64,000 nt of DNA from a virus, in IMG/VR virus record IMGVR_UViG_3300036766_000806, positions 27,048-91,047 of that record; one strand, 5' to 3'. The notes beneath the pieces were generated by a model. That model had not been told where the DNA came from. It ran no database searches and saw nothing but the letters and a program-made list of their open reading frames with translations. Shown here piece by piece: positions 10,890 to 60,810 of the stretch. Both the position numbers and the translations under genes were made by a program. Position 1 is the stretch's first letter. Each line of letters starts with the position of its first letter.

Positions 10890-10930
10890 CACACGACCCT
10901 AAAGGGTCGGTGCTTGCCTCTGACTGACAG
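10890..10930 (-). ncRNA. candidate omega RNA end next to tnpB
   Basis: TnpB nucleases use a guide RNA from the 3' end of tnpB through the element's right end. The hairpin CGACCCTAAAGGGTCG directly downstream of the tnpB stop fits that place. This is inferred from family knowledge; the true RNA would start well inside the tnpB coding region. Confidence 0.35.
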
Positions 10931-12032
10931 AGACGATTGGTGATTTGACTTTCACCTGTCCATCAAGTGCGGAGCACGTAATGGAGTGTTTGTTATACCG
11001 AAGTCCAATATTATTAGAAGCGTTGAGGTCAGCATCTAATACTTTTCCGTCAATGGCATAATACCTACATCCTTTACGCTTGCCATTGTCAAGACCCCGA
11101 TAGTCAAGTTGGCTGGTGTAGTGAGGACAAACGACTTCCACTCTCTTGCCGAGAGCGAGTGCCTTGTAGGTCAATATGGTTTTGAGTGTGAAAAATGGGA
11201 CTTGGGATAATCGGTTGTTGAACCTTTTACCTTTGGATTTGGACTTGATTTTGGAAAGGTCTTCCAAGACCAATATGTTTGCGGAAGTTGTCAATAGGTC
11301 ATTGACAATGTGATGTGTGTAGTTCTTTGAGAAATGATATTCTCTGCGTCTCAACGTTTTGAGTTTGGTTCGGGCAGAGTGAGAAAGTTTGCCTTGAAGT
11401 TTGCGTTTATTCCAACGTATCTTTCGCTTATGCTTATTGAAGTCGTTGCCTTTGACGATGTTTCCTTCGCTTGTAGCGACAAGACGTTTTAGACCTAAAT
11501 CTATACCAATGGTCTTGGTTCCTTTGAGTGGTTTGGTGGTGTCGTTGAAAACAACAGACAGAAATACATCGTTTCCTCTTGCGAATACGGATGGGTCTTG
11601 TAGAGGAAACTTCTCAAATAGTTCATTGACCTTTTGATACTTGGAGAGTTTGGCAGTGATACGTCCATCCATCGTAGTGAGTTTGATGGCATCATTTCCA
11701 ATCCAAGTATAGATACGCTTATCAAGTTGGATGTTGAGACGATTGGTTTTGACTGGTTCCTCAATCTTGTGATGATTGGCACGGATGGTCTTATACTTGG
11801 AGATTACGTCTTGTTCTGCCTTGATTACAAACTGACTTGGAAGGGCTGGAAACTGCTTACGGACTAAATCGTAGGAGCGTTGGTGAAGAGGCATAATGCC
11901 ATTACAGGTCTTCATTCCAAAGCGGATGGTGGATATAACGTTGAATGCCTCACGCTTCAAGGCGAGGGAGTTGATGAGGGACTGCTTATCCTCATCTTTC
12001 TCAAAAATCAACTTTATATTGTATGTTTTCAT
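10899..12032 (-). CDS. tnpB: TnpB RNA-guided nuclease of IS605 family, zinc finger degenerate
   Basis: 377 residues. RuvC-like catalytic motifs are present: GIDLGLKRLVAT (first Asp), ILVLEDLSKIK (Glu) and DADLNASNNIG (last Asp). Family members cut DNA guided by an RNA from the element end and help the IS persist. The usual four-cysteine finger between YTSQ and DADLNA is largely gone: only CPHYTSQ and one more Cys (KGCRYY) remain. The other finger cysteines appear substituted. Whether this variant is active is unclear. Confidence 0.85.
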   Translation of the reverse strand: MKTYNIKLIFEKDEDKQSLINSLALKREAFNVISTIRFGMKTCNGIMPLHQRSYDLVRKQFPALPSQFVIKAEQDVISKYKTIRANHHKIEEPVKTNRLNIQLDKRIYTWIGNDAIKLTTMDGRITAKLSKYQKVNELFEKFPLQDPSVFARGNDVFLSVVFNDTTKPLKGTKTIGIDLGLKRLVATSEGNIVKGNDFNKHKRKIRWNKRKLQGKLSHSARTKLKTLRRREYHFSKNYTHHIVNDLLTTSANILVLEDLSKIKSKSKGKRFNNRLSQVPFFTLKTILTYKALALGKRVEVVCPHYTSQLDYRGLDNGKRKGCRYYAIDGKVLDADLNASNNIGLRYNKHSITCSALDGQVKVKSPIVSVSQRQAPTL

Positions 12033-12059
12033 TTACTGACTGATACATATAGTGAGAAT

Positions 12060-12473
12060 ATGTCAAAAGCACAAAAATCGTATCATTGTTCGTCCCATAG
12101 CAAATATTTGCTACAGGCACATCTTGTATTTGCGACCAAGTATCGCAAGAAACTGCTTGATTGTCAAGTCAAAGAAGACATCAAACAAATCTGCTACGAC
12201 ATTGCGAAGGAGAAGGGTATTACTATTGTAGCGATGGAAACTGATTTAGACCACATACATTTGATGGTGGATTATCCACCTACGAAGTCAGTGTTAGAAA
12301 TGGTTGGGAACTTCAAGTCCATATCCACGTTTAGGATATACAAGAAGCATAGAGCATTCCTAAAGGGTCATTTTTGGAAGGAAAATACGTTTTGGAGCGA
12401 TGGATATTTCACTTGCTCCATTGGTGAGGCATCACCTGAAACCATCAAAAAATACATTGAAACACAAGGATAG
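12060..12473 (+). CDS. tnpA: IS200-type Y1 HUH transposase TnpA
   Basis: 137 residues. The HUH metal site is DLDHIHLMVD, and the catalytic Tyr is in TIKKYIETQ near the C-terminus. HUH Y1 transposases excise and insert single strands at the element hairpins. ATG 12060 is chosen because it matches the usual family length; the longer frame from 11880 overlaps tnpB. Confidence 0.9.
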   Translation: MSKAQKSYHCSSHSKYLLQAHLVFATKYRKKLLDCQVKEDIKQICYDIAKEKGITIVAMETDLDHIHLMVDYPPTKSVLEMVGNFKSISTFRIYKKHRAFLKGHFWKENTFWSDGYFTCSIGEASPETIKKYIETQG

Positions 12474-38449: not shown

Positions 38450-38806
38450 ATGACAACACAAGAATACTACGACATTACTCCAGATAAAGATGGATGGAGA
38501 CTCCTTCCTAATGGGAATAGAATTATGCTTGGCGATTATGCCAAAATTGGCAATTATGCCACAATTGGCAATTATGCCAAAATTGGCGATTATGCCAAAA
38601 TTGGCAATTATGCCACAATTGGCAATTATGCCAAAATTGGCGATTGTGCCAAAATTGGCGATTGTGCCATAATTGGCTATAATGCCAAAATTGGCAATTA
38701 TGCCAAAATTAAAAATAATCAAACAACAGAAGAATTAAATAAGTATTTTATCAGTACCTATCCAGAAAAATCTATTTTTTGGCATCGTTTCAAAAATTAC
38801 AACTGA
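38450..38806 (+). CDS. hexapeptide-repeat (left-handed beta-helix-like) protein
   Basis: 118 residues. About ten imperfect repeats of the type NYAKIG/NYATIG (residues about 28-90) follow a short N-terminus. Such six-residue periods with small hydrophobic residues form left-handed beta helices. The DNA repeats are nearly identical, so the array probably expanded recently. No transferase active site is seen. Confidence 0.65.
   Translation: MTTQEYYDITPDKDGWRLLPNGNRIMLGDYAKIGNYATIGNYAKIGDYAKIGNYATIGNYAKIGDCAKIGDCAIIGYNAKIGNYAKIKNNQTTEELNKYFISTYPEKSIFWHRFKNYN
38530..38710 (+). repeat. 18-bp tandem repeats in coding sequence
   Basis: Repeats of AATTATGCCAAAATTGGC-type units, about ten copies with single-base variants (ACA for AAA, GAT for AAT). 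The period of 18 bp keeps the frame, so copy-number changes by slippage would not break the gene. Confidence 0.85.
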
Positions 38807-45994: not shown

Positions 45995-46232
45995 GAAAAG
46001 AATTCCTTATTATGTGATAGCTGGCTTTAGAACAGAAGAGAATGACTATCTTTATTGGAAAAAGGAAGGGGGATGGGGAGGGGTAGAGGAAGCAACCATA
46101 TACTTTTCTATTCATTCCTGTTTACGATCCCCCCTACCCACAGGAGCCACTGAGATTGTGGAGTTCTCCCCCAATGGCGTAAAATCCTTTCCCATTTTTG
46201 AGGCCGAAAAAAATTCTGAAAAAAGTTATTGA
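45987..46232 (+). CDS. unknown protein
   Basis: 81 residues, overlapping the Gp88 end. Beta-rich, aromatic. The stop TGA lies inside the -35 of the next promoter. Confidence 0.5.
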   Translation: MPKKRIPYYVIAGFRTEENDYLYWKKEGGWGGVEEATIYFSIHSCLRSPLPTGATEIVEFSPNGVKSFPIFEAEKNSEKSY

Positions 46233-46256
46233 CAATTTCCACAAAGCATGTATAGT
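46229..46256 (+). promoter_or_regulatory. promoter of 46269
   Basis: -35 TTGACA (contains the upstream TGA), 16 nt, -10 TATAGT. ATG 46269 is 6 nt past the predicted +1. Confidence 0.7.
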
Positions 46257-46262
46257 TGAAGG

Positions 46263-46467
46263 TGCAAGATGAGCGTTGGATCTGGAAAATGGTTCATGGG
46301 TTCATCCGACATAAAGTGTGAAAGCTGGGCGGTACGTGTCGTAAAATAAAGTTAACTGCCTATTCTTAGAAAAGAAAGCGCCACAGGTGATGGCGAGAGT
46401 GATATGAGCGCAATATCCAAGTTGTCAAAAGGAAATACCTGAGACAATATCACCCCGGATTTAAAAT
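46263..46467 (+). other. 26-codon ORF followed by about 120 bases without a gene
   Basis: From ATG 46269 a 26-residue frame (GSGKWFMGSSDIKCESWAVR) ends at 46349. The following 118 bases have no ORF before the next ATG (46468). The whole 200-nt unit could be a small RNA or a peptide gene plus leader. The evidence does not decide. Confidence 0.35.
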
Positions 46468-46746
46468 ATGAAAAGTAAATTTAAACTTGTCGATCAAACT
46501 CCTCAAGAAATTCCCGAAGTAGTTACATGGGATCATGTGAAATCACACGAAGGAATTTGGAAAATTGACGGAAGTTGTTCTGCCAATCTTTTTGTCACTC
46601 TCCGTACAAAAAGCCCCGTCGCATCAATACCTTTGATTACATTGTGGGTTAGTGATTATGCCACATTACCCGCCGATGAAAACTGGCGAGGATGTGATTT
46701 TGTTCCCGTCAGAAATAAATCGCTTTCAATTACATTTTCCCCTTGA
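46468..46746 (+). CDS. unknown protein
   Basis: 92 residues, mixed alpha/beta. The stop TGA is inside the -35 of the ncRNA promoter. No motif recognised. Confidence 0.5.
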   Translation: MKSKFKLVDQTPQEIPEVVTWDHVKSHEGIWKIDGSCSANLFVTLRTKSPVASIPLITLWVSDYATLPADENWRGCDFVPVRNKSLSITFSP

Positions 46747-46770
46747 CAATTTCCGAAAAGTACGTATAGT
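46743..46770 (+). promoter_or_regulatory. promoter of the large structured RNA
   Basis: -35 TTGACA, 16 nt, -10 TATAGT. Predicted +1 at 46777; the ATG near it is followed at once by a stop (ATG ATT TGA), so no leaderless gene exists here. Confidence 0.75.
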
Positions 46771-46776
46771 GGAGAA

Positions 46777-47520
46777 TGATTTGACGGCGGAATGAGTAGA
46801 GAATAGCCAACGGTGAGACGCTACATCGTCAATAATTTATTCTTTGAACGTAAAAGTGCGGTCGTGGCATGGATCGAAAGATTCAATGCGAGGATCGAAC
46901 GTGACTAGTCCCGAAGGGGGCTAAGAAAAAATACATTAGCCTTAAATCGTTTTTACACGTTCATTGTTTTGCTCTTTGATTCTGCAATGGTGAATAATCA
47001 AAAGGGAATGTCGGCAAAGCCCAGGACTAGAAACGCCGCACAAAAAATACTCCCACCGTTGCATTAAACAATTTCGGGTTAGCTCCCGAGACACCGCATA
47101 TAAGGGGTGACAAAATCTGCGAGGCTGAACCTTTGTAGATACAAATCATCCGCCCGTTCAGGGGAAAGCGATCCACTATAGGATCGCCGGTGATTGTAAA
47201 ATTTGCCTCTTGCTCCTTTAGTTAACATAACACCTTCACTTGGGGAGTGAATCTTGAAAAAGAATCCGTAAAAGGATTGGCATTCGTCCATTTAATAGGG
47301 TGTAGGAGTGAGTGCGCTGGCTTGCCGCTCCCTTGAAAGCGAGATAGTTCAAAGCCATAAATAAAAGTACCCTCGCCCCGAAAAATGGATATGGGATTGC
47401 CCGTCGTGGAGTCTGTCAGGGAACGGGCAGTCCCTGGTTATAGTCCTAGGGGTGCATGAAAGCCCGGTGATTACAGACAGTCCTTTGGAAACTGAGGATT
47501 GCCTTTAGTCACCGGGCTTT
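46777..47520 (+). ncRNA. large structured non-coding RNA candidate (about 740 nt)
   Basis: No credible ORF lies between the promoter and the final stem. Local hairpins are dense: GAACGTG/CACGTTC (46897/46956), TCGGG/CCCGA (47072-47090), GCGATCC/GGATCGC (about 47168-47186), TTCACT/AGTGAA (47233-47251), AATCC/GGATT (47263-47278), a 12-bp stem GGGATTGCCCGT/ACGGGCAGTCCC (about 47392-47434), and a closing 12-bp stem AAAGCCCGGTGA/TCACCGGGCTTT (47459-47470/47509-47520). A long-range GCAATGGTG/CACCGTTGC pairing (46985/47055) is also possible. The pattern recalls the large phage RNAs GOLLD, ROOL and HEARO, but no known consensus was recognised. Confidence 0.65.
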
Positions 47521-47529
47521 GGCATTTAT

Positions 47530-47613
47530 TTGACGAAAAATGGACTGACATAAACCTTATCTTACGAAAAGTGGATTGATATAATTCTTATCTTACGAAA
47601 AATGGATTAACTG
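47530..47613 (+). repeat. three tandem repeats of about 31 bp
   Basis: Copies begin near 47530, 47562 and 47593, core ACGAAAAATGGATTGATA with the variants GACTGACA and GATTAACT. They follow the RNA's final stem directly. They look like iterons or a decayed repeat array. Confidence 0.7.
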
Positions 47614-47772
47614 GCTTTCCGTTTATTGGTATGCTTTTTCCTTCAAGTACTAATAAAATAGTACTTTGTACTTATTAAGCAAAAAATTCAAATGTTCAAT
47701 TGATGATTATTTATATTCCTAAAAATGTTCTTCCTTGTGGTATGCTCGGTGAGATATACTACTGGAAGGGTA
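47614..47772. other. AT-rich gap between the RNA and the leftward cluster
   Basis: Nothing gene-like. A stem AAGTAC/GTACTT (about 47644-47664) is present. This is where the rightward RNA unit faces the leftward cluster. Confidence 0.4.
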
Positions 47773-48033
47773 CTACGTAAGTCTGTTTTCTGTTATTTCA
47801 AAGAGAACTGGAGGTGCTGTAAAATAACCAGAATATGGAATTAACTCACTTTCAATATGAATTGGATCAATGTCATTTTTCACAAATCTAGTGGCAATTG
47901 CTGAATTGATATTATCAATTATTTTTCGAGCTTCATCTACATTACTGCATAAAATTCGTTTTGTGTAATCACCATTATCAGCCATACCGCTATTATACTG
48001 ATAATAATAATATTCTACTTCATACCTTTTCAT
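47773..48033 (-). CDS. unknown protein
   Basis: 86 residues from ATG 48033 (MKRYEVEYYYYQYN). Tyr-rich N-terminus, then a helical segment (CSNVDEARKIIDNINSAIA) and a beta region. Last gene of the leftward cluster. GGGAGACATTGATAT precedes it. Confidence 0.5.
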   Translation of the reverse strand: MKRYEVEYYYYQYNSGMADNGDYTKRILCSNVDEARKIIDNINSAIATRFVKNDIDPIHIESELIPYSGYFTAPPVLFEITENRLT

Positions 48034-48103
48034 AGATATCAATGTCTCCCTCTCGTAATTTTATGGCTTCTTTTCAATCACCACAGTTAATCCTCTTACT
48101 GCC

Positions 48104-60029: not shown

Positions 60030-60302
60030 ATGAATAAGTTTAAGATTCAAGTTGTGGCTGGAGCCTACCAGATTCAAGTACGGAAGTACGCTGCCGGAGA
60101 GAATCACCATTCGACTGACAAGTTTGAACTAGTGGAAGTTGTTACTTGCCGGGTATGGGCAGAACAGATTGGCAATTTCAATCCTCTCTTTTGCCGCTAT
60201 AAAGGCAAGCGGATTATGGTTCATTCGGACGCTGGCGACTTGTCCGATCCTTTCCAGCGAACTGAGGATTATGCCAAGACTTTTTTCATTGAAATTGCAT
60301 AA
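60030..60302 (+). CDS. beta-rich protein
   Basis: 90 residues. IQVVAGAYQIQVRKYAAGEN start; mostly strands. No family recognised. Confidence 0.5.
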   Translation: MNKFKIQVVAGAYQIQVRKYAAGENHHSTDKFELVEVVTCRVWAEQIGNFNPLFCRYKGKRIMVHSDAGDLSDPFQRTEDYAKTFFIEIA

Positions 60303-60593
60303 AGCATAACGCTCTTTGAGAAACGATTTCACGTGTCTCCGGTGTAGCTAAAATACGCAAGGGCATTCGGCGCTGAAAAGAGCCTTGTTAGCCTTTGTGG
60401 TGTATGGCATCCGGAGCGTGATTAGCAAGGTTGCCTTAGTACTGGGCAATGGTGATTGTTACATGACCCCTTCCAGAGCTTGTGACGTGTGACTAGGCTT
60501 GTCCTGAAAAAGACCAGGGGCCGAAACTAAAATAAAAGGTGCTTGACTTAGCATTGGATTCCCGGGCTGTGAAATTGGCCCGGGAGTTTTTTT
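60303..60593 (+). ncRNA. candidate structured RNA or attenuated leader
   Basis: 290 bases without a gene, ending in an intrinsic terminator. A CTCCGG/CCGGAG pairing (about 60338/60411) and several short stems are possible. No separate promoter was found, so it may be the 3' part of the 60030 transcript. Confidence 0.35.
60560..60593 (+). terminator. rho-independent terminator
   Basis: Stem TCCCGGGC / GCCCGGGA followed by GTTTTTTT. Confidence 0.85.
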
Positions 60594-60598
60594 ATTTT

Positions 60599-60646
60599 CA
60601 CCGAACTGTATTTAGGACTATAAAAGTAAATATTTTTAGGACTAAA
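60599..60646. promoter_or_regulatory. composite element 4
   Basis: CACCGA (60599-60604), TTTAGGACTATA (60611-60622) and TTTAGGACTAAA (60635-60646). Confidence 0.65.
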
Positions 60647-60675
60647 TTTATTGGCACTTATTATCATAGCAATCT

Positions 60676-60712
60676 TCGTGCCAAGTAAAGAAAAAAACTG
60701 CACTTGGCACGA
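60676..60712. repeat. TGCCAAGT/ACTTGGCA inverted repeat 1
   Basis: TCGTGCCAAGT / ACTTGGCACGA with a 15-nt spacer, just upstream of the 60734 promoter. Related copies at 62185 and 63552. Confidence 0.75.
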
Positions 60713-60733
60713 AAAATGTTTTTTACTTTTATA

Positions 60734-60761
60734 TTGCAATCCGCTGTGATATCGGTAGAAT
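60734..60761 (+). promoter_or_regulatory. promoter of 60811
   Basis: TTGCAA, 16 nt, TAGAAT. The gene starts 43 nt later; the leader holds a GGGCA/TGCCC hairpin (60778-60792). Confidence 0.55.
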
Positions 60762-60810
60762 AGAGTTGAAAATAAGAGGGCATAGTTGCCCTTAGCGAAA
60801 GCGACAAAAC

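Follow-up and report, generated by a model that had tools for sequence, protein, structure and literature searches.

A probable new family of structured non-coding phage RNAs with a conserved pseudoknotted core

A gap free of credible coding sequence in a 91-kb viral contig (G000), of which the right-hand 64 kb (64,000 nucleotides, hereafter "the window") was analyzed, probably specifies a phage-encoded non-coding RNA of a new family, a trans-acting structural RNA with its own promoter and a pseudoknotted core. The gap begins behind a promoter sequence, lacks coding capacity and folds with a clear bias towards the sense strand. A core of ~105 nt within it has homologues, with compensatory base changes, in three related metagenomic phage contigs (G002, G027, and G024), where the gap that contains it is always located among or next to tRNA genes.

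A promoter-led gap with sense-biased folding

ORFs of at least 75 aa are absent from 46744–47775, the longest such interval in the window, and the short antisense ORFs of the gap have no PHROG match. On the plus strand, a sigma-70-type promoter (TTGACA-16-TATAGT, 46743–46770) agrees with the consensus at 11 of 12 positions and belongs to a recurring type: a near copy of the 28-base promoter is found at 46229, and three instances with at most three mismatches occur in the window vs. none expected by chance. Promoters of this type are widespread in the phage and usually lie a few tens of bases 5' of an ATG, unlike the one at 46743, which has no ORF downstream. The initial annotation had proposed a good promoter leading into a region without a credible ORF, and both points are borne out. 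We thus delimit a predicted non-coding structured transcript at 46777–47525 (plus strand, ends approximate), the 3' end of which is not fixed since no intrinsic terminator was recognized for the window RNA. As a separate observation, the promoter at 46229 precedes a non-coding leader of ~205 nt followed by a 92-aa ORF (46468–46746), an unusual arrangement for this phage, and this leader (46229–46467) folds with a z-score of only −1.4.

The gap is predicted to fold strongly, with an MFE of −261.8 kcal/mol for 46777–47530 that none of 60 dinucleotide shuffles equaled, and with a z-score of about −6.3 on the plus strand vs. −3.3 antisense (a separate run gave −5.2). The stem density had been described as unlike that of the other gaps, and this is what we observed, as the z-scores of the other long window gaps that we tested went no lower than −4.0. 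Near the 3' end, where two 12-bp stems had been noted, one stem of 12 perfect pairs (47393–47404 with 47423–47434, plus strand) carries GTCTGT in its loop, and a long hairpin (inverted repeat I2, 47459–47484 with 47495–47520, plus strand) has 26-nt arms that are 85% complementary. Two long-range pairings had been suggested as well: the complementarity between GCAATGGTG and CACCGTTGC is present (9 pairs), and so are GTCTGT (47411) and ACAGAC (47473), the latter being part of the long 3' hairpin, with which a pairing of the two would compete. Taken together, the promoter, the lack of an ORF, the strong folding and the reality of the 3' stems therefore confirm the original observation.

Several other repeated or well-folding sequences were seen in the window. 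A 31-nt direct repeat of the TTATCTTACGAAAAATGGATTGATATAATTC type occurs in three tandem copies at 47526–47618, immediately 3' of the RNA, and a 12-base part of it, CGAAAAATGGAT, recurs at 47379 within the RNA. The second-best folding gap of the window (60300–60810) has z-scores of −4.0 and −3.6 on its two strands. Strong hairpins on both strands also occur at 38452–38806, in a very regular hexapeptide-like coding repeat (IGNYAK/IGDYAK), and reflect coding rather than RNA structure.

Architecture of the conserved core

The conserved part of the window RNA is its middle (47092–47196, plus strand), not its 3' end, and includes three helices (P1, P2, and P3) and a pseudoknot. P1 is formed by CACCG (47092–47096) and CGGTG (47188–47192), and shows double changes in five of five pairs. 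The pseudoknot pairs GGGTGA (47105–47110), within the conserved AGGGGTGACAAA, with TCATCC (47146–47151), which lies in the P2 loop within the conserved AAATCNNNCGC; it is 100% paired in the four sequences, with double changes in three of its six pairs. P2 (CTGAAC, 47125–47130, with GTTCAG, 47156–47161) is also 100% paired, with double changes in all six pairs, and the P3 hairpin (GCGATCC-ACTATA-GGATCGC, 47168–47187, arms 47168–47174 and 47181–47187) is 95% paired, with double changes in three pairs. The 3' strand of P1 directly follows P3, and our model has P3 stacking directly on P1. Likewise, the pairing of GGNYGA with UCRNYC in the P2 loop is modeled as an H-type pseudoknot; an alternative version, which contained a bulge and GGG:CCC, was given up in favor of a continuous six-pair helix that suits all four sequences.

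The plan common to the four members is a closing P1, AGG-N-Y-GA-YAAA, P2 with AAUC-RNN-CGC in its loop, GAAA, and P3, the two longer motifs being joined by the six-base-pair pseudoknot. Conserved letters outside the helices are A-G before and Y-AAA after the 5' strand of the pseudoknot, AA before and GC-Y after UCRNYC, and GAAA before P3. We define the new family by P1, P2, P3, the pseudoknot, AGGNYGAYAAA and AAUCRNNCGC, all of which were found in the four members. Just 5' of the core, a CGGG/CCCG hairpin is predicted at 47072–47091 (plus strand), and G002 has a hairpin at the same place (by eye, locus L054).

Homologues beside tRNA genes

Used as a blastn query against phage and plasmid records and against the genome it comes from, the RNA matched nothing other than itself. 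Relatives were sought through GP88, a 1274-aa protein, TROVE, and DUF932, and TROVE alone led to the right clade. In G002, whose TROVE protein is 56% identical to that of the window phage, an unannotated gap adjoins tRNA-Ile and two tRNA-Gly genes and folds with a z-score of −6.8 on one strand vs. −2.3 on the other, over a stretch that includes tRNA-Ile; the portion past tRNA-Ile has a z-score of −2.9. The best local alignment of G002 with the window RNA is weak (8 of 100 shuffles were as good), and its blocks (GACAAAA...CGAG...AAATCNTNCGCCC...GGAAA) are surrounded by three helices in the same places but of different sequence. A covariance model of the window alone (R1) finds this domain with 17.3 bits (E 3e-4 in 1.4 kb), an optimistic E-value given that the place had already been seen beforehand, and it is the paired changes that carry weight: 17 of 18 pairs are kept, and 10 are changed on both sides.

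The model of window plus G002 (R2) finds G027 with 26.8 bits (E 5.5e-6 in 15.5 kb, or an estimated ~0.003 when scaled to the ~9 Mb of contigs searched), the core lying upstream of five tRNAs. A first genome-wide look had missed G027, which was detected because a nearby chance match brought in the flanking DNA. The three-member model (R3) in turn finds G024 with 24.8 bits (E 0.0015 in the 179 kb of that genome), a match that is marginal on its own and fails correction over the ~100 contigs searched. This core lies between tRNA-Gly and tRNA-Pro, keeps six of six pairs in P2 with new base pairs and six of six in the pseudoknot, and folds unaided into P1 (GGUCUG:CAGACU), the P3 hairpin and the pseudoknot helix, all closed by a long outer helix.

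In the alignment of all four sequences, 96.6% of cells are paired, compensatory double changes affect 17 of 24 pairs, and 24 cells are changed on both sides. In 500 shuffles, none of the pair-count measures was ever reached, and sliding the partners by 1–3 columns lowered pairing to 31–44% (maximum 43.8%). These counts lean towards structure because the alignment was fitted to the model; the helices had nevertheless been read from the window alone at first. P1 of G024 is misplaced and its P3 deleted in the alignment, so both helices rest there on G024's own fold. The G002, G027, and G024 cores fold with z-scores of −4.4 to −5.6, and folding of the window core is sense-biased too. Covariation in homologues, which the initial annotation had named as a check, is thus seen for the ~105-nt core in a family of only four sequences, and does not extend to the flanks, for which no homologues are detectable.

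The distribution of the core is narrow. None was found in the searched genome parts of closer kin (G001, G016, G018, G020, and G021), which suggests that the core is dispensable or patchy. Scanning degenerate core patterns against the viral collection and 84,980 prokaryote genomes gave no further member beyond G002, the other matches being coding sequence or unrelated regions, and the family is thus either rare or fast-diverging. We discarded weak model matches in G004, G022, G034, G059, Bacillus phage PJN02 and T4, in which P2 or the motifs were missing, and large gaps in other relatives turned out to be tRNA clusters.

Comparison with known RNA families

No match to Rfam 15 was obtained at curated thresholds over the whole window, and at E ≤ 10 the surroundings of the gap gave just two chance microRNA matches. 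Over the window and the homologous loci, gathering and lax thresholds returned tRNAs and chance matches to small-family models (miRNA, snoRNA, and sRNA). The GOLLD and ROOL models matched none of the four loci even at E up to 5–10, and no Rfam covariance-model match was obtained for group I/II introns, HEARO, OLE, or known ribozymes. The initial annotation had considered membership in GOLLD or ROOL, which these models do not support, or a new class, for which the lack of an Rfam match together with the strong covariation of the core argues. Judged by Rfam 15 and the literature searched, the RNA family is undescribed; it is of the same kind as the large phage RNAs, with a different core.

GOLLD and ROOL form RNA nanocages of unknown purpose, homo-oligomeric for GOLLD and homo-octameric for ROOL. 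GOLLD is a large non-coding RNA of phages that often lies close to tRNA islands and has both a conserved and a variable part, and ROOL is a phage RNA near tRNA islands with multiple pseudoknots and unknown function (PMC12286853). The window RNA is similar to GOLLD in size, and the family shares with it a phage origin, the combination of conserved and variable parts and, for three of the four members, a tRNA-island setting. However, the conserved part of GOLLD is a universal 3' region of ~400 nt, whereas here ~105 nt at the center of the window RNA are conserved, and some members seem to measure ~290 nt. With ROOL the likeness lies in phage origin and, for the three homologues, tRNA-island setting, and the difference in that no conservation is detectable here outside the core. 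The proposed resemblance in setting is seen in three of the four members, G002, G027, and G024 all having the core in or beside a tRNA island; the window's 91-kb contig contains no tRNA genes.

We know of no function for rnaC and rnaD of T4, which resemble the present RNAs in that they are small and stable and that a large phage encodes them among its clustered tRNA genes. These T4 RNAs (species 1 and 2; annotation of NC_000866) are 119–139 nt long and by eye lack the conserved motifs of the core, and the R3 model did not match the T4 stable-RNA genes. Another pseudoknotted stable RNA carried by some large phages is tmRNA, of which ARAGORN found none in the window. ARAGORN did predict a tmRNA gene in relative G017 (365-kb contig; L212:388–791, tag ANLNRLVNADFAFEVNTFEEVAVAA), a contig with >40 tRNA genes, one of them with a CTA anticodon.

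Extent of the RNA and alternative explanations

On either side of the core, the window RNA has parts with a stable predicted fold: a 5' part (46777–47060, plus strand; z −3.07 sense, −1.3 antisense) without an alignable counterpart, and a 3' part (47197–47525, plus strand; z −6.9 sense, −4.8 antisense) without a homologue. No convincing flank similarity was found between any two members (1 of 15 pairs reached p 0.02). A terminator-like hairpin lies ~120 nt past the core in G027, and only ~290 nt separate the flanking tRNAs in G024, so that member lengths would range from ~290 to ~750 nt, with the G024 and G027 RNAs appearing, from these landmarks, to span only ~290 nt around the core. Of the large structured RNA of about 740 nt first proposed, the promoter, the non-coding character and the structure hold, but not its status as one conserved unit, only ~105 of 750 nt being shared; because the 5' and 3' parts have no detectable homologues, a single 740-nt molecule would be a presumption, and the flanks may be separate elements. 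It is possible, if somewhat doubtful, that the core alone is functional and its flanks are transcribed separately or represent unrelated elements, which would be compatible with the fold and mode of action that we favor. The dissimilar flanks and the hairpin in G027 speak for this, whereas the sense-strand folding of both window flanks, and the fact that no strong second promoter or terminator was recognized between the window parts, speak for a longer unit.

With regard to function, a catalytic or processing element, i.e., a self-cleaving ribozyme or a nuclease-recognized structure that separates the core from adjoining tRNAs, is unlikely. Such an element would be consistent with a compact pseudoknot of two helices in which unpaired AAA/GAAA and AAUC segments are invariant, and with the position of homologues next to or between tRNAs that have to be processed, but Rfam ribozyme families have no match in the window at E ≤ 10, the window copy has no tRNA nearby and no cleavage site is apparent. 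All four core phages encode TROVE, and Ro proteins are known to bind structured non-coding RNAs, which could make the RNA a Y-RNA-like scaffold, as ligand or partner of the phage's own Ro/TROVE protein. We consider this quite unlikely: the phages were found through TROVE (and GP88), so the co-occurrence was built into the sample and is no evidence; the core is missing from most of the TROVE phages searched; the Ro gene lies far away from the RNA; and Rfam Y-RNA families have no match. A cis-acting leader or riboswitch is highly improbable, although a promoter lies upstream and pseudoknotted three-helix junctions are common among riboswitches, because the next gene downstream in the window (47773–48042) is on the opposite strand, and because the core is followed in G024, G027, and G002 by tRNAs or non-coding sequence and by no shared gene. 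Finally, a divergent GOLLD or ROOL RNA would account for the size of the window RNA, the phage origin and the tRNA-island setting, and for a conserved domain with a variable rest as in GOLLD (PMC12286853); we regard it as very unlikely given the failure of both Rfam models in the four loci and the apparent length of only ~290 nt of two homologous RNAs.

The Ro/TROVE-like RNA-binding protein itself is encoded at L037:7356–8906, in the same genome but outside the window, and its neighbors include, by eye, a WGR-PARP-like protein (L037:1698–2972) and a Thg1-like tRNA-His guanylyltransferase (L037:16280–17101).

Proposed role

Under the favored reading, a trans-acting structural RNA of a new family, 46777–47525 would be transcribed from its own promoter as a non-coding RNA whose core forms a knotted domain, with P1 closing the junction, a pseudoknot to the P2 loop, and P3 stacked on P1. 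The core family would carry different decorations in each phage, in or beside tRNA islands, and the RNA would be made during infection and act in trans as a stable, abundant and architectural molecule, alone or with protein. It may interact with the translation apparatus or act as its scaffold, a role also suspected of GOLLD, ROOL, and the T4 stable RNAs. Transcription, length, abundance, action in trans and the link to translation are here what we infer from sequence and genomic setting. A plausible though tentative elaboration is that the pseudoknotted core of ~105 nt, extended by phage-specific decorations to as much as ~750 nt and with a fold unrelated to those of GOLLD and ROOL, forms RNA-only or RNA-protein particles that engage tRNAs or ribosomes during infection.

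Very few large structured phage RNAs are known to us. If the proposed reading is true, this would be an independent further family in a tRNA-island setting, and such RNAs would be recurrent in large phages. The short and well-defined core offers a small target for structure determination and pull-downs.

Elsewhere in the window (10899–12473), a TnpB-like protein (minus strand) was seen by eye beside an IS200/IS605-type TnpA-like protein (plus strand), and the left end of this TnpB/TnpA-like element folds well.
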